34,766 nt of DNA from assembly GCA_021162685.1 (NCBI GenBank), contig JAGGYF010000034.1:1-34766 (forward strand), written 5' to 3'. Source of the DNA: Candidatus Iainarchaeum sp. (lineage in GTDB: Archaea > B1Sed10-29 > WALL01). The position numbers and the translations under genes were made by a program. The notes under the pieces were generated by a model, which searched no databases, was not told where the DNA came from, and saw nothing but the letters and a program-made list of their open reading frames with translations. The stretch's first letter is position 1, and every line of letters starts with the position of its first letter. Below are positions 1 to 34,766 of the stretch, one piece after another.

Positions 1-2041
1 CTGATGCTGTGTTACCAACTGAATCAGCTGACTCAACCTCAAAGTAATATGTTGTGCCGTTTTGTAGGCCTGTTAAATCAATTGAGTGGGATGTAACTAA
101 GGTACTGTCAGATTCCTCACTACCTAATGTTGTACAATCAGTTCCATAATATACTACACTTGTTGCATTCTCATCTGTTGTCCATGTTATTGTTGCAGAG
201 GTATTTGTTACAGATGATGAAACAGATGAGATAGTTGGCGGTGTTGTATCAACAGTGAATGTTATCTGCGTGGACGCTGTATTTTTGTTTCCCTGGACAT
301 CCATACATCTCACATAGTATGTGTGATCACCATCTGAAAGACTTGCTAGTGATTCTGAGTGTGAAACACCGCCAGTTGTTGAGAACGTGTTATTCATTGA
401 ATCATAATCCACATCAGATGTATCATATTTACATGTTGCATCCTCGTCTGTTGTGACCTGTAATGTCGTAGTGTTTGTTCCTATTGTTCCTGTTGGCTGT
501 GCATTGCTTATTGTTGGTGGGGTAGTATCAGGCTCAGCTGTCGTGAAATTATAAACATCGCTCTCATTACACTTTCCAGATGCATCACATGATTTAACTT
601 TGTAATAGTATGTAGTATTTGATGTTAATCCGCTAAGTTTGATTGAATGTGATGTTACACTGCTATTATCTGTTACAGTGTTATCAAGTGTGCTTGAACT
701 TGTACCATAATATACAGTGCTGTTGCTTGACTCATCCGTTGTCCATGTTATTGTAGCGTTTTCTGTTGTGATGGATGTTGCAGTAACAGAACTTATTGTT
801 GGTGCTTTCTTATCTGTTGGAGTCCTACAGTTATCAGTGATGTCGTCTACATTCTCATTTCCATCTGTATCAACTGCTGTGACTGCAAAACAGTATTGCA
901 CACCATTTGTTAATCCTGTAACTGTGTAATTCGTTTTGTCCTTTTCATATATCTTCTTTATTGGAGTTAGATCAGAAACGCTGCTTATAGAACTTGTGCT
1001 CTTGTATATCCTATAATGGTCAAAATCAGATGCATCTGACTCATCCCATTCCAAATAAACCTCTCCACCGTTTTCTGTATCCTGTGCCTTTAATCCTGCA
1101 ATTGGGTCTGGTGGAGTTGTATCAGAACCAGTTTTGAATGTGTCTATGTTTGATGTGCCTATGTTTCCAGACATATCCTCTGATACTACCCTGTAGTAGT
1201 ATGTCTTTGATGGAAGCAAATCGCTTATGGTTATAGAGTGAAGGTTGACATATGCAGTCTTCTTCTTCTCGCTTCCCAGGGATTGTGTTGTCCCATATTC
1301 AACCTTAGATGTTGCCTCCTCATCAGTATTCCATGTTATTGTAACTGTTGTTCCAGAAACGCTTACATCAATATCAGATATCTGAGGAGGGGTTTTATCC
1401 TCAACCTTAGATATTGTAAATTCAATCGTCTTAGTAAATGTTCTTCCTGTTGCATCTTCTGCCTCTATTTTCAACGTATGTGTCTTCCTAAGGAGGGAGG
1501 AAGGAGTATATGTAAACGTCTTGTTGTCCTCTGTTGTAAATGTTACTTCCTCATCATCAAGTGTTGTTTTTGTTAGTACTACCTCCTTGTTAAAAGATAA
1601 TGCTATCTCAGGGCTTGTCGTATATATCGTGCTTCCATCAGAGGGAGTTATCTCAGCTGTTATCTCTTTTGTATCAATGGTAAATGTAAGATAGATGTGT
1701 CTTTTGTTTCCAGCAACATCTGTTGCATTTAGTGTGACTGTATGATTTCCATCCTCAAGCGTTACTTCTTTCCTGAAAATAACATGATTTATGTTTGTTA
1801 TATCCTCCGAGATACCATCTATCCTAAAATCTGTTACTATTACTGGCTCATCAAATTCAAAATAGATAGAAATCTTTGATGAGTCAATAAATGTGTTGTT
1901 CTCAGGAGAGACAACGGGCATAGAGAGAGAGGTATCCACAATGATGGTTGGTTCCTGCTCCATGGTCTTATTTGTTTTCTGTGTTTCAACACATCCTGCA
2001 ATGAGTATAAAGAGCATCAACAAAAAAACCTTTGTTTTCAT
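1..2041 (-). CDS. Fibronectin-III-type repeat lipoprotein (3' end outside window)
   Basis: The frame is open from ATG at 2041 to the window edge, giving at least 680 residues. The N-terminus is a lipoprotein signal: a hydrophobic stretch followed by a lipobox (LIAGC) with Cys17, so the protein should be lipid-anchored outside the membrane. After an Ig-like segment come about five beta-sandwich modules joined by DTTPPTIS-type linkers. Four look like fibronectin III (TITW.TDE..., YYGT, TYYY.V.S.D..GN) and one is a shorter Ig-like unit. N-x-T/S sequons are frequent. A catalytic domain may lie beyond the edge. The gene begins 10 nt after the secD stop, so it is probably co-transcribed with the Sec accessory genes. 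The FN3 fold assignment is firm; the role (surface adhesion or scaffold) is inferred. Confidence 0.88.
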   Translation of the reverse strand, partial: MKTKVFLLMLFILIAGCVETQKTNKTMEQEPTIIVDTSLSMPVVSPENNTFIDSSKISIYFEFDEPVIVTDFRIDGISEDITNINHVIFRKEVTLEDGNHTVTLNATDVAGNKRHIYLTFTIDTKEITAEITPSDGSTIYTTSPEIALSFNKEVVLTKTTLDDEEVTFTTEDNKTFTYTPSSLLRKTHTLKIEAEDATGRTFTKTIEFTISKVEDKTPPQISDIDVSVSGTTVTITWNTDEEATSKVEYGTTQSLGSEKKKTAYVNLHSITISDLLPSKTYYYRVVSEDMSGNIGTSNIDTFKTGSDTTPPDPIAGLKAQDTENGGEVYLEWDESDASDFDHYRIYKSTSSISSVSDLTPIKKIYEKDKTNYTVTGLTNGVQYCFAVTAVDTDGNENVDDITDNCRTPTDKKAPTISSVTATSITTENATITWTTDESSNSTVYYGTSSSTLDNTVTDNSSVTSHSIKLSGLTSNTTYYYKVKSCDASGKCNESDVYNFTTAEPDTTPPTISNAQPTGTIGTNTTTLQVTTDEDATCKYDTSDVDYDSMNNTFSTTGGVSHSESLASLSDGDHTYYVRCMDVQGNKNTASTQITFTVDTTPPTISSVSSSVTNTSATITWTTDENATSVVYYGTDCTTLGSEESDSTLVTSHSIDLTGLQNGTTYYFEVESADSVGNTAS

Positions 2042-12191: not shown

Positions 12192-13661
12192 ATGAAAGAT
12201 AAAATTATTTCATATTTAAGGGAAAAGGGTTTTCTTGTAACACCAGAGGCACTTGAAGAGATAATGAAAGAGGATGCTCCATTGACATTTGCAGAGCGAC
12301 TATCAGAAGAGGTTTCTGGATCAATTATTGATGTTGAACAAATAGAACAGGTTAGAAGGCCTAAAGAAGAAAAAAGGATAGTCTACGAACCTAGTTCTCC
12401 GTTTAATCCACCTGCCAAGGAGATAGAATCAAAGGTTGTTGTGTTTGATGAACATGATGTAACAGGAAAATCACTAAGCGAAGGAAAGGTTGAGGATTTC
12501 ATTGATTATTTTAGGGACAGGTTTAGAAGGTTGTCAAAGATACTAAAAGAGAGAAGCGGAACACTAGTAAAGAATATTGAAGCATTGAAGAAAAAGCAGT
12601 ATGCAGATGAGATAAGAATTATTGGAATGATTAGTTCTTTACATGAAACAAAAAAAGGACATGTGCTTATGACACTTGAGGATGAAACAGACCAGATTAA
12701 CGTTCTCATACCAAAGCAGAATAGAGACCTCATGCTGTTCTCAAAAAATCTCTTGCCAGATGAGGTCGTTGCTGTTGAAGGAGTTTTACGCGGTACACTG
12801 TTCATTGCACAAGATATATTTCGCCCAGATATCCCCATGAAAACACCAAATAGAGCAGATGAGGAAGTATACGTTGCAATGATATCTGACACACATGTGG
12901 GAAGCAAACTCTTTATGGAGAAGAACTTTGTTAGGTTCATAGATTGGTTGAATGGAAGATATGGAGATGCAAAGCAGAGAGAACTTGCAGGAAAGGTAAA
13001 ATACATAACATTTGCTGGTGACCTCTGTGATGGTGTGGGTATATATCCAGGGCAGGAAGATGAACTTGAAACAGATGACATATTCAAGCAATATGATAAA
13101 CTTGCTATGCTATTGGAGAATGTTCCAGATTATATAGAGATCATTGCAATATCTGGGAACCATGATGCAGTGAGGGTTGCAGACCCTCAGCCAGCAATTC
13201 CAGAATATGTACTTGGTCATCTAAAAGATCTTCCGAATTTCAGGAGCCTTGGTTCTCCCTCCTATGTTTCATTACATGGTGTTGAATTCCTGTTGTATCA
13301 TGGACACTCTATCCACTCCGTTGTTCCGCATGTTAGCACTGTTGATTACAAGAACCCAGAGATGATAGTTAAGGAGTACCTACAGAGAAGGCACTTGCAT
13401 CCTGTATATGGTGAAAAACCTCCCATCTGTCCTGAGAAGAAGGACTATTTGGTCATAGAGAGAGTGCCAGATGTTGTGCAGGTTGCTGATGTGCACAAGA
13501 ATGGATATATGACATACAAAGGAGTTATAGGAGTAAATGCGGGGTGTTGGCAGAACACCACACCATATCAGATAAAACAGGGACACCACCCTACACCATG
13601 TATCCTACCTGTGATGAACCTACAGACAGGGAAATTAAACATACTACACTTTGATAGGTGA
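12192..13661 (+). CDS. polB: DNA polymerase D small subunit DP1 (exonuclease)
   Basis: This is the proofreading 3'-5' exonuclease subunit of the archaeal replicative polymerase PolD. The protein has an N-terminal helical domain (1-50), a linker, an OB fold (about 140-210, EIRIIGMISSLHETKKGHV), and an MRE11-like calcineurin phosphoesterase domain. All metal motifs are kept: SDTHVGS (near 232), FAGDLCDG (near 275), SGNHD (near 321), YHGHS (near 369) and VADVHKNG (near 431), so it should be active. The 489 residues are a normal length. ATG 12192 follows AGGGG by 7 nt; an in-frame GTG at 12186 is the alternative. The stop overlaps the Shine-Dalgarno of the DP2 gene, giving a polB-polC operon. Confidence 0.96.
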   Translation: MKDKIISYLREKGFLVTPEALEEIMKEDAPLTFAERLSEEVSGSIIDVEQIEQVRRPKEEKRIVYEPSSPFNPPAKEIESKVVVFDEHDVTGKSLSEGKVEDFIDYFRDRFRRLSKILKERSGTLVKNIEALKKKQYADEIRIIGMISSLHETKKGHVLMTLEDETDQINVLIPKQNRDLMLFSKNLLPDEVVAVEGVLRGTLFIAQDIFRPDIPMKTPNRADEEVYVAMISDTHVGSKLFMEKNFVRFIDWLNGRYGDAKQRELAGKVKYITFAGDLCDGVGIYPGQEDELETDDIFKQYDKLAMLLENVPDYIEIIAISGNHDAVRVADPQPAIPEYVLGHLKDLPNFRSLGSPSYVSLHGVEFLLYHGHSIHSVVPHVSTVDYKNPEMIVKEYLQRRHLHPVYGEKPPICPEKKDYLVIERVPDVVQVADVHKNGYMTYKGVIGVNAGCWQNTTPYQIKQGHHPTPCILPVMNLQTGKLNILHFDR

Positions 13662-13665
13662 TGTT

Positions 13666-16600
13666 TTGAAAGCAGACCCAGTGATACAGAGGTATTATGA
13701 AACCCTTGAAAAGAAGGCAAGGGAAGAGTATAGCATTGCAAAGGAAGCAAGAATGAAAGGGTATGACCCAAGCCAGAATGTTGAGATAGCATTTGCAAAG
13801 GATGTATATGCAAGGGTTGAAGGACTTGTTGGACCAACGGGCGTTGCTGCAGATATGAGAAGGATCATGGCAGAAACTGGATCAAGGGAGACCACTGCCC
13901 TTAGGACTGTTGATCTTATCATTGAAGGAAAATACGGAGAGATGGATGAAAATGAAACAGCAGAGCAGTGTATAAGAACTGCTCTTGCTCTTCTAACAGA
14001 GGGAGTTGTTGCAGCACCAATTGAAGGGATCTCTGGTGCAGAGGTTAAGGAGAATCCAGATGGATCAAGATATCTAACAGTTGGATTTGCTGGGCCAATA
14101 AGAAGTGCTGGGGGAACAGCACAAGCGCTAGCTGTACTAATTGCAGATTACACAAGACAGAAGATGGGATTGGATGAATATAGACCAACAAAAACAGAGG
14201 TTGAAAGATATGTGGAAGAGATAAATCTCTACCACAACGCTGTATCAAGATTACAGTACAAACCAACAGACGATGAGATAAGGACCATTGTTACCAACTG
14301 TCCTGTATGCGTATCTGGTGAGCCAACATCTGATGTTGAGGTTGATGTCTATAAAGATCTTGATAGAATACCAACAAATAGAATAAGGGGAGGTATGTGC
14401 CTAGTAATAAGTGAAGGCATTGCACAGAAGGCACAGAAGGTATTGAAATATGCCAAACTATTTGGGTTGAACTGGGATTGGCTCTCCTCTATTGTAAAGG
14501 TTGGTGCAAAAGGTGGGAAAACAGAGATAAAACCAGTTGACACATACATGAAGGAGATTGTTGCAGGGAGGCCTATACTATCCTATCCATCAACACCTGG
14601 CGGATTTAGGTTGAGATATGGAAGAACAAGAAATAGTGGGTTAATGGCAAAAGGTATGCACCCAGCAACAATGGTTGTGTTAGGAGGCTTCCCAGCTATC
14701 GGAACGCAACTTAAGGTTGAGAGGCCGGGCAAGGGCATGACTGTTGTACCATGCGATACTATAGAGGGTCCAGTTGTAAAGCTCAGAAACGGTGATGTTA
14801 TTATACTGGATAGTGAGGAGCAGGCAAGGGAGCTGTACTCACAGATTGATGAGATATTGTTTAATGGTGACCTCCTTATCTCGTTTGGTGATTTTTTACA
14901 TAGTAACCATCCAATCGTGCAAAGTCCTTGGGTTGAAGAATGGTGGGTACAAGAGTTAGAGGAGAGAGGAGGGAGATGTAAAAATCCGTTCAATGTCTCA
15001 TTTGACGAAGCAGTTAGATATTCAAAAGAGTATGGTGTCCCATTGCATCCAAAATTTGTTTTCCCATACAATGATGTTTCCATTGATGAACTGAAAAGGT
15101 TGATGCGTTGGCTCTCAACAGATATGAAAAACAGTGATGAAAAAAGAATACTTGAGTTACTTCTTGTTCCTCATCATGTTGAAGAAAACCATATTGTTAT
15201 TGAAGAATGGGCAAGAAAAGCATTGTTCAAAACATTAGATATACCATACAGCTTATCAAAGATTGACAACATAACTGCTGAAGATACATTATCATTTGTA
15301 AACAAACTTTCTCCTTTCATAATAATGGATAAAGCACCTGTCTACATAGGGGCAAGGATGGGAAGGCCAGAAAAGGCAAAAGAACGATTGATGAGTCCTG
15401 CACCACATGTTCTATTCCCTGTGGGTACATATGGAGGAAGCACACGTTCCATTATGAAGGCAGCAGAAGGTGGCACAATACAAGTAGAGATAACACGACT
15501 TAAATGTCCAAAATGCAATGTGATTGTCAATGGATATAAGTGTGACAGATGTGGATCACGAACTGTTGTTGAATATATCTGCCAAAGGTGCGGGATCCCA
15601 TCAGAGGATTTTTGCCCCAAATGTGGAGCAAAAACTGTAGGATATGAGAAGAGGGTTGTAAACCTAAAAGAGTTACTTGAAAAAGCCATTGAAAAGGTTG
15701 GGAAACCAGACCCAAAATTGAAAGGAGTTAAGGGAACAACGAGTGAAGCAAAATGCTTTGAGCCATTGGAGAAGGGGATATTGAGAAGCAGACATGGAGT
15801 ATATCTGTTCAAAGATGGAACAATACGGTTTGATTCAACAAACCTGCCAATAACGCACTTCAAGCCAAGTGAGATAGGAACAAGTATAGAAAAACTAAGG
15901 GAATTGGGTTATAGTGTATATAGCGAAGAGGATATTGTGGAGCTATTCCCACAGGATATAATTGTCTCAGAAGATGCTGCACCCTATCTCGTGCGGGTTA
16001 CAAAGTTTATTGATGAACTTCTTGAGAAATTTTATGGTCTTGAGCCATACTATAACATTGATACAAAAGAGGATTTGGTTGGAAAACTTGTTGTTGGGCT
16101 GGCACCACATACATCAGCTGCTATATTGGGCAGGATTATAGGGTTCTCCAAGGCAAGAGGATGCTACGCTCATCCATATTTTCATGCTGCAACAAGACGT
16201 GACTGCTTTGCGTATGATGAAACATTGCCAATATTTGATGGCATGTCGTGGCAAATTGTGAAGATTGGTGAGTTTGTTGAAAACCTAATAGAAAAAGGAC
16301 AATTCAGGACAACAGAGTTTGGAGATATTGTTGTTGAAGTAGAGGGATATAAAACTCTCTCCCTCAATAAGGATGGAAGATATGAGCTAAAAACCATAAC
16401 TGCTTTCTCAAAACATCCTGTTCATGACCATGTAACAACAATTAAAACTAAAAGCGGGAGGGAGATCACAACGAGCGGTCTTCATAACTTCATTGATTCA
16501 AAAAATCATGTTGTCCCAGCATTTCAGAGTGAAGAGGTGATACTCCCACGTAAACTTGACATACCAACAAGGGATGTAATGTGGATCGACTTGCTGGACT

Positions 16601-18360
16601 TTTCTGATGAGGACACTATGATTGTAGGAATTGCTGAAAAACTGAGGAGATATCTAAAAAGGGAGGGAGTAGCAAAGACCGCAAGAACCCTTGGGATACA
16701 TAAAAGCACATTGTACAATTATATGGTGCGTGATTCTGTGCCACTTTGGCTAGTACAGAGAGTAGGGATTAGTATTCCCTCCGATGTTCAAATTAAGGAA
16801 AAAAGAGATACTGTAATCCTTCCAAGAAAGATAAGGGTTGGAAGGGATTTCTTAAGGCTTCTTGGCTTCTATGTGGCAGAAGGCCATTGCAGAAAGAAAG
16901 ATAAGTTATGCTACCAGGTTGATTTTGCTGTTACCAGAGAAAAACAATTGGTAAAGAAGGTCATCAAAAATGTTTTTGGGGTAAACGCCTCAGAGGGAAA
17001 ACAGCGGGTCACTATCTGCTCAAAGATAATTTATAATCTTTTTGTGGGTCTAAAAGCAGGTACACACGCAAAGAACAAAAGAGTTCCACCGTTCATCTTT
17101 TCGCTACCATTAAAAAAGGTAAGGTGGTTTTTACAGGGATACTTTGAAGGAGATGGAGGGATAAGTAAATCAAAAACCAAAGGGGCGAGTCCCGAAGTGG
17201 CCTGTACATCAGCAAGTAAAATGCTATTGCGTGACATTGAATTTCTGCTTACTCGCTTTGGGCTGGTTTGCTCATGGGCCAAAGATGAGAGAAGCATGAG
17301 TACGGGAAAAGTTGCTGAATTTTACAAAAAGAGAGGGCAAATGTTGAAGTGGAAGTGTTACAAACTGCGCATGTATGGCACCACGGCCAAAGAGTTCTGT
17401 GAAAAGATAGGCTTCTGGTGGCCACAGAAAAAAACAAAGGCACATAAGATAATTAATCATCATTCATTCAAACAGAAGAGGATGAAGTACCTAAGGAATA
17501 GTGTCGTTGATCCTGTTAAAAACATAGAAATCAAAAAGTCTCCTCAATTTTTATATAATCTCACCGTAAAGGACAACCACAATGCGCTCGTTTCTGGGAT
17601 AACAGCAAAGCAATGTGACGGTGACGAAAATGCAATCATGCTTCTCCTTGATGCACTGCTCAACTTTAGTAAATCCTATCTTCCAGCAAGCAGGGGAGGA
17701 AGGATGGATGCTCCTCTTGTTATAACACTTGTCTTAAATCCATCCCAGGTTGATGACCAGGTGCATGAGATGGATATAGTTGAAAAGATGCCTCTGGATT
17801 TCTACAGAAAAAGCGGGGAGTTGTTAAGTCCCTCTGAGTTTGATATTGAAATTGTTGAAAAGAGACTCGGGAGAGAGAACCAGTATAACGGATTTAAGTA
17901 TACACATGAGACTTCAAAAATTGATGCTGGTGTTGTCCGCTCTGCCTACACAACACTTGAAACAATGGACGAAAAGGTTGATGCACAACTAAGCCTTGGA
18001 AGAAGGATCAGAGCTGTAGATGAAAAGGATGAAGCAAAGCGTTTGTTGAATTCTCACTTCCTTAGGGATTTATATGGTAACTTGAGGGCATTTGGAGAAC
18101 AAAAGTTTAGATGTACTGACTGCAATGCAAAATACAGAAGGGTTCCACTCATAGGCAAGTGTGTGAGATGCGGTGGAAGGGTTATTCTAACAATTGCAGA
18201 AGGTTCTGTTAGGAAGTATCTTGAAGTAAGCAAACAGATAGCAAATGACTATGGGTTGTCTGATTATATCATACAAAGGTTAGAACTGTTAGAAAAAAAT
18301 ATTGACTCTGTATTTGTAAATGAAAAGAGCAAACAATACAACCTAACAGACTTTTTGTAG
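13666..18360 (+). CDS. polC: DNA polymerase D large subunit DP2, intein-containing precursor
   Basis: This is the catalytic subunit of PolD. The precursor is 1564 residues; removing the 470-residue intein leaves about 1094, normal for DP2. Recognisable parts are the N-terminal [32 protein letters not shown] region, [14 protein letters not shown], a zinc-ribbon cluster (CPKC...CDRC...CQRC...CPKC, about 614-660), the catalytic [18 protein letters not shown] segment split by the intein, and a C-terminal zinc finger (CTDC...CVRC, about 1483-1503). The Asp pair in CDGDE corresponds to known catalytic aspartates. No ATG is available. I chose TTG 13666 because AGGTGAT (13656-13662), which overlaps the DP1 stop, lies just before it; TTG 13651 is the alternative. 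The stop directly abuts the convergent gene. Confidence 0.96.
   Translation: [1564 protein letters not shown]
16204..17613 (+). mobile_element. DP2 intein with LAGLIDADG homing endonuclease and C-terminal Gln
   Basis: This is a 470-residue in-frame insertion in DP2 between RRD and CDGDEN. It starts with Cys1 ([11 protein letters not shown], block A) and has a block B with TTSGLHNF (Thr89/Thr90, His94). Two DOD endonuclease motifs follow, LLGFYVAEG (219-227) and [10 protein letters not shown] (310-319). Block F, [15 protein letters not shown], precedes the end at ITAKQ, followed by extein Cys. The final residue is Gln rather than Asn and the penultimate is Lys rather than His. A Gln-ending intein is known in Pyrococcus abyssi PolII, so splicing is plausible. 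A helix-turn-helix (about 155-190) lies between the splicing and endonuclease parts. Retained acidic motif residues suggest an intact homing enzyme. Confidence 0.95.
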
Positions 18361-21437: not shown

Positions 21438-22031
21438 TCACTTCAATGCATTGGCTATTATCTCTCCGAACTGCTTTGCTGCATGAGGTCCATTTGCTGT
21501 TATAATATTTCCATCAACAACAACATTTTGATTTATGTATGTTCCTCCTCCCTCTTCTATTAGTTTAGCAAATTGGCCGTTTCCATTCCATATCGTTGCC
21601 TTTTTTCCTGAGAGGATGCCTGCCTTTGCGAGAATGCCTGGCGCAATACATATGGCTGCAACGGGCTTTCCACTGCTAAAAAATGCTCTTGCTATATCGT
21701 GTGCTTTCTTATTCTCGTAGTATATGGACGCACCAGAGCCACCGACAAAGACAACAGTATCATAGTTATCTGGATTTATCTCATCTATTGTTGTCTCAAC
21801 ATTGTATGTTGCTCCTAGCATACCATGTGCCACTCCTTTAGATATGCTTGCTACTGTTACATTTATGCCTGCATCCTCAAGTGCCTTCTTTGTATCAAAC
21901 AATTCCTCATCCCTAAAATTTTCAAATGCTATGACCATAACCACAGATTTCCCCATTGCTCTTCCCTCCTCGTTATTTTGCATTGTGCATCCTACTATCA
22001 TCAATATCAGCAGCAGAACGAACAATCGCAT
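21438..22031 (-). CDS. DJ-1/PfpI family lipoprotein
   Basis: The 197 residues begin with a lipoprotein signal (LFVLLLILMIVGC, lipid-modified Cys15), followed by a complete DJ-1/PfpI domain. Visible are the strand KSVVMVIAFENFRDEEL with the conserved Glu37, the glycine-rich VVFVGGSGA, and the nucleophile elbow AAICIAPGILAKAGIL with Cys128. Most DJ-1/PfpI proteins are cytosolic, so membrane-anchored extracytoplasmic placement is unusual. Possible activities are protein/glyoxal deglycase, chaperone or peptidase; none can be chosen from sequence. A leaderless start is supported by the box atttaaaa (22053-22060) about 25 nt upstream, which lies inside the last codons of hel308. Confidence 0.9.
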   Translation of the reverse strand: MRLFVLLLILMIVGCTMQNNEEGRAMGKSVVMVIAFENFRDEELFDTKKALEDAGINVTVASISKGVAHGMLGATYNVETTIDEINPDNYDTVVFVGGSGASIYYENKKAHDIARAFFSSGKPVAAICIAPGILAKAGILSGKKATIWNGNGQFAKLIEEGGGTYINQNVVVDGNIITANGPHAAKQFGEIIANALK

Positions 22032-32472: not shown

Positions 32473-34053
32473 ATGAAAAGGCTTTCTCTATTGATTGTTT
32501 TATGCTTTTGCCTCTCACTCCTTGTTGGGTGCATTGGAGGAGGAAATAACGAGATTAACTACAAGAATTGTGGTCATAACCTAAGTTGTATCCAGAATGC
32601 GATTCAGAATTGCATCCCTGCAAAGGCAACTGTCCAGAATACTTATGTTGAAGTGCGCGGACCGAATGAATATCAATGTAGTTTACAGGGGCATGACATA
32701 GGCCCATGTGAATTATGTGAAGTTTATTTCCAGACCGAATCAGAAGAAGCAATATGTAATATCCCTCCACTTTTTCATAAATATGATATGTGGGAGTATA
32801 TGTCCCTGGGAAACAAATATTGCAAATTAAGCAGTAGAAGTGGTCCCATAATTGATGTTGGTGAAATGGAAACAGCTCCCAAACCACCTACTGAAGCAAC
32901 ACCCGCTCCCAGTACAGATAATGATCGAACTGGCGAAACACCAGAAGAAACTCCAGAACCATACAAAGTCATTCACCCAGAATGCGAAGTAATTCCATCA
33001 GACGATTGGAGGGCAATATGTGATGCAGCATTCGAACATAATGTTTCTATGTGCGCAGATATGAAGTATCCAGCTAGTGATAACTGTTATGCAACACTTG
33101 CTTTGGTTGAAGACAATCCTGCATATTGCAATCGAGCAGAAGTTTACACTGGAACTTGTTTTGAGTGGTATATGGAGATGAATATCGACAAACTTGATAA
33201 AACATACTGTACAGAAGTAGCAGCAGACAAGAACACTTGCTTACGTAGATATGGAGAATTGAAAGACGATTACTCTGTATGCACTGATCTGAAGCTGGAT
33301 CCAAGTGATGATTATTTATGTTGGCAAAAGATTGCAGAAGCCAATCTAGACCCAAGTGCATGTAGTGAATTGGTGGGTAAGAGACGAAGTGAATGTTATG
33401 AGCGATTGGCAAAACTGACTAAAGATACTTCGCTTTGTTCTTACATGGAAGAGGGAGATTATAAAAGCCACTGTTATGCTTACAGCAGTGAAGGAAATCC
33501 TGATCCTAGTGTGTGTGCAAACCCCATGAAATATGATTATGATCGAAAAAAATGCTATTTGCAAGCAGCAAGATACTTAACTGATAAATCTCTCTGCCCA
33601 TATGCTGAGGGAGAGGGGTCTTTCACAAAAGGAATGTGTGAGGAAGTTGTGGATGCTCAGATACTGATAAATAAAGCTGTTGACAAAAAAGACGCATCCA
33701 TATGCGAAGAGATACAAATAGATGAGCTCCTAAAAGATGATACGTTGTGGTATTACAATAATCACATGAGCCCATTAAAAGATGATTGTTATTACGCTGT
33801 CGCAAAAGCAACATTGAACAAAACCTTATGCGATTTCTCAGGAACGCACAGATTAGATTGCTATGAATGGATGTATAAAGAAACGCTTGACCCAGACATC
33901 TGCCCAATTGTAAAACACCCTGGACAGTGCTATAAATACATTGGGATACGCACAAATGATTTTAGTCTCTGTGCAAATGCTAGCAAATATGGAAGGGCAG
34001 AATGCTATTCCAAGGCAATAGCAGCAAGCGTCTTAAAAACAAGCAAACAATGA
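32473..34053 (+). CDS. Lipoprotein with tandem two-cysteine helical repeats
   Basis: The 526 residues begin with a lipoprotein signal (LLIVLCFCLSLLVGC, lipid-modified Cys20). A Cys-containing N-terminal domain (about 30-125) follows, then a Pro/Thr/Glu linker (about 135-163) typical of surface stalks. From Cys171 to the end there are about 13 units of about 25 residues. Each is of the form D.S.C..(M/I)...6-12...C(Y/F/W)...A, for example ASDNCYATLALVEDNPAYC and KSHCYAYSSEGNPDPSVC. The regular Cys pairs suggest one disulfide per helical hairpin in an extended extracellular solenoid. I recognise the repeat style from other uncultured archaea but know no function; ligand binding or attachment is possible. 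Alanine, aspartate and tyrosine are enriched; no catalytic motif is seen. Confidence 0.8.
   Translation: MKRLSLLIVLCFCLSLLVGCIGGGNNEINYKNCGHNLSCIQNAIQNCIPAKATVQNTYVEVRGPNEYQCSLQGHDIGPCELCEVYFQTESEEAICNIPPLFHKYDMWEYMSLGNKYCKLSSRSGPIIDVGEMETAPKPPTEATPAPSTDNDRTGETPEETPEPYKVIHPECEVIPSDDWRAICDAAFEHNVSMCADMKYPASDNCYATLALVEDNPAYCNRAEVYTGTCFEWYMEMNIDKLDKTYCTEVAADKNTCLRRYGELKDDYSVCTDLKLDPSDDYLCWQKIAEANLDPSACSELVGKRRSECYERLAKLTKDTSLCSYMEEGDYKSHCYAYSSEGNPDPSVCANPMKYDYDRKKCYLQAARYLTDKSLCPYAEGEGSFTKGMCEEVVDAQILINKAVDKKDASICEEIQIDELLKDDTLWYYNNHMSPLKDDCYYAVAKATLNKTLCDFSGTHRLDCYEWMYKETLDPDICPIVKHPGQCYKYIGIRTNDFSLCANASKYGRAECYSKAIAASVLKTSKQ
32983..34020 (+). repeat. About 13 tandem two-Cys protein repeats
   Basis: The coding stretch for residues 171 to about 516 carries a Cys every 8-17 residues in an alternating short/long rhythm (C-x8-13-C[YFWL], then about 12-14 to the next C). 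Units 9 and 10 are longer, with insertions of 8-16 residues. The DNA copies have diverged, so this is an old amplification visible only at protein level. Confidence 0.75.
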
Positions 34054-34098: not shown

Positions 34099-34114
34099 TT
34101 TTTGTCTTGTTTTT
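34099..34114 (+). terminator. T-tracts after the cysteine-repeat lipoprotein gene
   Basis: Two T5 runs (34099-34103 and 34110-34114) lie 46-61 nt after the stop codon, as in archaeal intrinsic or aCPSF1-dependent termination. The rest of the 150-base gap 34054-34203 holds the acttaaaccaaa repeat, an agggccct palindrome (34143-34150) and the next promoter. Confidence 0.4.
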
Positions 34115-34126
34115 ACTTAAACCAAA
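34115..34126 (+). repeat. acttaaaccaaa motif, copy 2
   Basis: Second copy of the 12-base string at 30659-30670. Here it continues as ccaaaaaattgg (34122-34133), a 4-bp stem with an A4 loop, directly after T-tracts. Confidence 0.3.
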
Positions 34127-34171
34127 AAATTGGTAACCTGACAGGGCCCTATGTTCCGCTATTACCCTTTA

Positions 34172-34179
34172 TCTTTTTA
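34172..34179 (+). promoter_or_regulatory. TATA box of the translin-family gene
   Basis: The sequence tttttatg is centred about 28 nt before the ATG at 34204, consistent with a leaderless start. Assigned by spacing. Confidence 0.4.
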
Positions 34180-34203
34180 TGTGTTGCATCCAAAAACAAT
34201 AGT

Positions 34204-34766
34204 ATGAACCTTGTGAAAGCAGAGAAGGAGCTCATAAAAAAGCAGAGGATTCGGGATGCCGTAACCCCAAAGCAAAAGGAGATCCTTAGGATATGTGCAA
34301 AAGCAATTAGGGATATCCATACAGGTAATATAAAAGAAGCGCGCAGGAAAAAGAAGGCAGTGGAAAAGAGGATAAAGGCACTTGAAAAGCAAATCAAGCA
34401 ATATCCCGTGCTTAGAGATAGACTCCTTGGCATTTGTTATCAGGAGTATGTTGAGCTTGCAGTCATGCTCTCTGTGCTGAAAGATAGTAGGTTACCAGAG
34501 CTGAACGTGCCTGCTGACGCGTACGTGCTTGGCACACTTGATGCAATTGGCGAGATGAAAAGAGAAGTGATGACAAAACTCCTCAACAATGATATTGATG
34601 GTGCGTTAATGCTCTACAACAAAATGGAGGAGATATACTACGCAATGGAGGGATTTTCCTTCCCTAGCTCAATTGTACCTGGGCTCAAAGCAAAACAGGA
34701 TGTTATGAAAAGGGTATTAGAAGGCCTCTATATCATCCTTGTTGAAGCACAGACAAAGAATAGGGA
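34204..34766 (+). CDS. Translin family protein (3' end outside window)
   Basis: The frame is open from ATG 34204 to the window edge, giving 187 residues. The text is all-helical and matches translin/TRAX: basic helices at the start (KKQRIRDAVTPKQKEILRIC), YQEYVELAVMLSVL, the family hallmark AYVLGTLDAIGEMKREVMTKL (LGxxDxxGE), a NDIDGALMLYNKMEEIYYAM helix, and the closing LKAKQDVMKRVLEGLYIILVEA. Archaeal translins form octameric barrels that bind and in some cases cleave RNA, including tRNA-derived pieces. Only a few residues are likely missing. No neighbour inside the window informs its role further. Confidence 0.88.
   Translation, partial: MNLVKAEKELIKKQRIRDAVTPKQKEILRICAKAIRDIHTGNIKEARRKKKAVEKRIKALEKQIKQYPVLRDRLLGICYQEYVELAVMLSVLKDSRLPELNVPADAYVLGTLDAIGEMKREVMTKLLNNDIDGALMLYNKMEEIYYAMEGFSFPSSIVPGLKAKQDVMKRVLEGLYIILVEAQTKNR

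Follow-up and report, generated by a model that had tools for sequence, protein, structure and literature searches.

A predicted archaeal lipoprotein with a tandem array of two-cysteine helical repeats

To our knowledge, little is understood about how tiny symbiotic archaea and bacteria grip other cells, and recognisable domains are scarce among their surface proteins. A contig of 34,766 nucleotides from Candidatus Iainarchaeum sp. (JAGGYF010000034.1, assembly GCA_021162685.1; the whole stretch is called the window below) encodes near its end a protein with a long series of spaced cysteines, which raises the question of what kind of protein this is and what it might do outside the cell. A preliminary description of the window had proposed a thirteen-unit two-cysteine solenoid on a lipoprotein stalk, projecting as a disulfide-pinned rod from a small-genome archaeon and possibly serving attachment or host contact. 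The analysis reported here confirmed that observation and partly supported its interpretation. We consider it fairly probable that the product is a lipid-anchored extracytoplasmic protein whose rigid rod of 13 repeats acts as a surface scaffold for protein-protein contact. The organism does have a small genome (1.11 Mb, 98.4% complete), in which the protein has only one full match.

The open reading frame list and translation gave an intact gene for the protein (Table 1). The array coordinates given in the preliminary description agree with ours, its first base exactly, but the gene starts 510 bases further upstream, and the front third, including an N-terminal cysteine-rich domain, had been overlooked. 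Read directly, the N-terminus MKRLSLLIVLCFCLSLLVGC is a hydrophobic signal peptide that closes with the cysteine of a lipobox, as had been supposed, and the protein is predicted to be lipid-anchored at that residue. What had been called a Pro/Thr linker is also rich in glutamate. The array itself runs from Cys171 (base 32983) to Cys511 (base 34005) and contains 26 cysteines in about 340 residues, with Y, F or W directly after the second cysteine in 10 of the 13 pairs. Around unit 10 it is interrupted by two insertions, the cysteine gaps there measuring 22 residues (Cys389 to Cys411) and 28 residues (Cys411 to Cys439), and the AlphaFold2 confidence (pLDDT) falls below 50 at residues 426-431.

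Table 1. Features of the window protein and its gene; array pairs are given as residue numbers, all other positions as bases of the window.
Feature	Position	Strand	Description	Basis
Whole gene	32473..34053	+	526-aa predicted lipoprotein, predicted two-Cys helical repeat array at C-terminus	ORF
Predicted signal peptide and lipobox (SLLVGC, putative lipidation at Cys20)	32473..32532	+	Hydrophobic N-terminus ending LVGC	Direct sequence reading
N-terminal Cys-rich domain, aa ~29-120	32557..32832	+	8 Cys, pattern CG-x4-C-x7-C...C	
Pro/Thr/Glu-rich linker, aa ~129-165	32857..32967	+		Sequence composition
Repeat array	32983..34020	+	13 C...C pairs	Cys spacing, unit HMM, Cys-blind parse, AlphaFold2
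Array pairs 1-7	171-183, 194-205, 219-229, 246-256, 270-283, 297-308, 322-334	+		Cys count
Array pairs 8-13	348-361, 375-389, 411-439, 453-463, 477-486, 500-511	+		Cys count
Irregular array stretch	33595..33789	+	Two insertions	Cys spacing, AlphaFold2

The repeat array is real and belongs to an uncatalogued family. A single-unit HMM of 26 positions, built from 110 units of other genomes only with the window protein left out (consensus CYSDVAEATKDPSICEKISDQELKDS), scored the window protein at 60.9 bits, compared to a maximum of 12.6 bits over 1,000 shuffles, half of which kept the cysteine positions. A single-unit HMM had been proposed in the preliminary description as a check, and on this independent profile the window protein carries the unit pattern C-[YFW]-x3-[AGS]-x4-[DN]-x3-C in tandem. 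Successive cysteines are 8-15 residues apart at 22 of the 25 gaps, a regularity reached by none of 100,000 random placements of 26 cysteines over an equal span. When the array was parsed without regard to cysteine, most units between residue 205 and the C-terminus fell into the same register; residues 171-204, one and a half units at the front, are more divergent. The earlier statement of regular units of about 25 residues needs correction, the period being irregular in the window protein and 26 (14 + 12) in the family. The three-unit profile A1 matched the window protein with an E value of 1.8e-20 that is not independent, 2 of its 20 rows having been taken from this protein.

No match to the window protein was obtained in Pfam, NCBIfam, PHROGs or, by sequence at E up to 10, the PDB, revealing no known enzyme or catalogued family, and the arrays of its relatives gave nothing above cut-off in the same searches. 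Literature searches found no description of a two-cysteine 26-residue repeat, an absence that is not proof. Several candidate assignments were rejected: hits of single members to DDE_3, CCDC50_N and LRR20_Nterm (Pfam/NCBIfam) lay far under the cut-offs, and a FecR-like tail suspected by eye in one relative (L099) found no Pfam support. A viral origin was likewise set aside, the viral contigs searched containing no relative, one relative having a single weak PHROGs match (E 0.0045), and the resemblance by fold being confined to TPR, Sel1 and ankyrin look-alikes of giant viruses.

With the A1 profile, 70 of the 345 archaeal genomes searched, from 61 of 232 genera, proved to carry the repeat. Among 387 genomes related to a Parcubacteria hit there were 45 carriers, all measuring 0.5-1.4 Mb (sizes were taken for carriers only), and at a looser cut-off 4 of the 19 genomes of the window organism's phylum had the repeat. 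No array was found in the four genomes of its family. A scan of about 85,000 species named Altiarchaeota, Diapherotrites, Woesearchaeota, Liptonbacteria, Parcubacteria and two unclassified bacteria as carriers. Its hand-made query, A4, combined two rows close to the consensus with a third from L002 in which two residues had been altered (CEQI to CEKI); the scan therefore detects canonical units only, and the named carriers are biased accordingly. Most of the named lineages are thought to be symbionts, and several copies of the array frequently occur within a single genome, as paralogues do in adhesin families. Together with the small size of the Parcubacteria-related carriers, these facts would fit a host- or partner-cell adhesin, in which the array would be the contact surface of an episymbiotic archaeon. 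We nevertheless regard this explanation as doubtful, given that the repeat occurs in no more than about one in five of the archaeal genomes searched, that the near relatives of the window organism have none, and that certain members, having just 3-4 units or being joined to the multi-span membrane protein DUF2079, do not resemble an adhesin tip.

The surface scaffold that we prefer is consistent with the architecture of the other members. N-terminal lipoboxes or transmembrane anchors are present on many of them, lipid- or membrane-anchoring being usual, and in some the arrays are fused to fn3 (9e-7) or DUF2079 (6e-66) domains, or to a C39-peptidase-like domain (7e-5, just under the curated cut-off of one model and just over that of another), or are divided in two by a mucin-like Ser/Thr stretch (L091). 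These anchors and fusions fit an extracellular scaffold. The array stands between the anchor and another domain in L008, L070 and L044, an arrangement that, like the mucin-like linker, would also suit a pure spacer whose only task is to raise another domain off the membrane. Such a role is unlikely here, the array of the window protein and of most members being the C-terminal end with nothing beyond it. Two members are of interest in themselves: L111 is a DUF2079 multi-span membrane protein with a short C-terminal two-cysteine array, next to which a second array protein is encoded, and the C-terminus of the array protein L093 includes a segment similar to archaeal flagellin (PF01917, 1.3e-6; 29.3 bits, the cut-off being 29.5).

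We further assessed how the two cysteines of a repeat, C1 and C2, might be paired. In family arrays, C1 is followed by C2 at a spacing of 14 in 542 of 626 steps, and C2 by C1 at a spacing of 12 in 473 of 687. Among 80 arrays drawn from 47 genomes, C2 is the first cysteine and C1 the last in 65, the reverse is seen in only 2, and the C2-start/C1-end arrangement is the majority in 40 of the 47 genomes. Disulfides between C1 and C2 of the same repeat would predict the opposite ends, so that the closed unit is probably C2-x11-C1 with a helix-helix disulfide, a pairing deduced from the array ends and the even cysteine count. The end counts depend on the rule by which chains are cut, and paralogues of one genome are not independent. 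The rule used (a cut at 30 residues between cysteines, those of the first hydrophobic stretch left out) was chosen after a first count was known, which with a 24-residue cut had given 61 of 81 and had broken the window array; both counts agree in their answer. The window array likewise begins with C2, ends with C1 and has no cysteine left over, as expected from the earlier claim of one C...C pair per unit, and we infer that it contains 13 disulfides. Covariation of cysteine loss was tried as another test of pairing and rejected; its first cysteine-blind version was confounded by parsed non-repeat regions. Cysteines are so seldom lost (1,383 retained, 17 single losses) that covariation says nothing on the matter, and their retention is in keeping with the disulfide-locked rod.

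Alternatively, the cysteines could be metal ligands or free thiols of a redox-active protein rather than structural disulfides. Their density would suit this, and neither VKOR nor DsbB was found in the organism's own genome, two absences that count against a disulfide-locked rod. That genome gave only one membrane thioredoxin-like CPFG protein and a sub-threshold DsbD-like match, and the disulfide machinery of this organism is uncertain. However, the even count, the 14/12 spacing and the ends of the arrays fit pairwise disulfides, the protein has an export signal, and cysteines of the window array are never closer than 9 residues, so that no CxxC motif occurs. We accordingly consider a metal- or redox-active protein very improbable and retain the disulfide-locked rod.

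Structure prediction also supports the helical solenoid that had been proposed. The AlphaFold2 model of the window array, made with nine relatives, is all helical (pLDDT 85.8, pTM 0.77), and a regular relative from Liptonbacteria (L037) was predicted with a pLDDT of 96.6 over 355 residues and a pTM of 0.80 as a strict repetition of 15-residue and 4-6-residue helices with a 26-residue period. Foldseek comparison with the PDB, by which the possibility of a known enzyme fold raised in the preliminary description was checked, gave no enzyme fold among the 50 best matches; the best neighbours were TPR-type superhelices (LGN, OGT and the lipoprotein-binding LbcA), at a TM score of at most about 0.3. 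Among viral models the matches were Sel1, TPR and ankyrin proteins, the best being a mimivirus ankyrin protein (TM 0.47). The predicted models describe the array as a helical solenoid that has no close relative among solved structures. TPR grooves bind ligands, and a possible, if tentative, alternative is that the array is an envelope scaffold or peptide-binding adaptor, its concave face binding a peptide or protein of its own cell (secretion, S-layer or a protease partner). The C39-peptidase-like fusion would agree with such a role, as would the peptide-like contacts that Sel1 proteins make in crystals (PMC3851747). Against it, the fold matches are loose, and the conserved positions (C, Y, A, D, C and I) look structural, with no further conserved patch found.

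Based on these results, we propose the following model for the rod. The C-terminal ~350 residues would fold into 13 repeats that build up a rigid helical solenoid. Each repeat would begin with helix A, a long one of about 12-15 residues, and continue with helix B, a short one of about 4-6 residues, the C2 cysteine of helix B being disulfide-bonded to the C1 cysteine of the next helix A. The linker and the N-terminal cysteine-rich domain would set the rod apart from the membrane, where it would offer a large repetitive face for contacts with a partner or host cell, an envelope protein or a peptide. The most likely reading is that the protein serves binding or display as a rigid rod on the surface, host contact being a plausible one among several uses. 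A bolder and rather unlikely extension is that such rods are common to ultra-small archaea and Patescibacteria-type bacteria, through gene transfer or shared need, and serve symbiotic cell contact, the window protein then being a divergent lipoprotein member with a second uncatalogued cysteine-rich domain.

By architecture, the nearest analogues of the two-cysteine rod appear to be the Hcp proteins of Helicobacter. HcpB and HcpC are exported helical-hairpin superhelices whose successive Sel1 repeats are joined end to start by disulfides (PMC3851747; PMC2581425), and a similar inter-repeat disulfide is inferred for the present family. Their repeats, however, have 36 residues rather than 26, and the Sel1 model of Pfam matched neither the window protein nor the relatives tested; the array is thus not an Hcp/Sel1 member. 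HcpB and HcpC were also absent among the 50 best Foldseek matches. TPR superhelices (OGT, LGN and the designed CTPR) share the stacking of tandem antiparallel helical units and include the best Foldseek neighbours, but they have a 34-residue period, two near-equal helices and no regular cysteines, in contrast to the one long and one very short helix predicted here; the TPR model of Pfam matched neither the window protein nor its relatives, and the likeness of fold is only loose. The repeat region of H. pylori CagY, compared by its description, also consists of surface-exposed tandem helical repeats with regularly spaced cysteines thought to be stabilising (PMC2581425), whereas its A motif has 38-39 residues and the protein sheathes a type IV secretion filament. 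The fungal adhesin BAD-1 has tandem surface repeats with one disulfide between conserved cysteines in each (PMC3708853); these are WxxWxxW loops of a eukaryote and not helical hairpins, and the likeness is one of principle only. A disulfide-locked helical solenoid on an exported protein is thus an already known kind of structure, and the new element is a two-cysteine 26-residue repeat separate by sequence from Hcp. The two-cysteine array adds a design to this kind, annotators could use it to name many surface proteins now labelled 'hypothetical', and a well-defined repeat on exported proteins of both archaea and bacteria provides a concrete list of candidates for study.

The N-terminal cysteine-rich domain is a separate module, as it has array-less relatives in other archaea. 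When 150 archaeal genomes were searched with profile A8, 15 proved to contain the domain, and the organism's own genome has it a second time; Pfam gave no match to it. In a genome of the same family (G001), six matches were observed, one of them in an open frame of 883 residues; the module thus looks expanded there, in a genome where no repeat array was found.

Relatives within the order keep the FKBP, proteasome beta, CPSF-type nuclease and translin-like genes together, but the array gene is absent from this conserved neighbourhood in the relatives examined and therefore looks like a lineage-specific insert. Its absence from the locus, together with the lack of an array in the four family genomes, indicates that it is not essential to the clade. 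The translin-family gene (34102-34764, +; PF01997, 2e-7) runs off the contig end and is conserved, being present in 7 of the 11 genomes from the order. Elsewhere in the window, a DJ-1/PfpI-family protein (21438-22031, -; E 4e-40) starts with a lipoprotein-type signal, LILMIVGC, which suggests a lipid-anchored DJ-1 protein outside the cytoplasm, and the translation of 13651-18360 (+) was judged by eye to be the large subunit (DP2-like) of an archaeal DNA polymerase II, apparently containing an intein.
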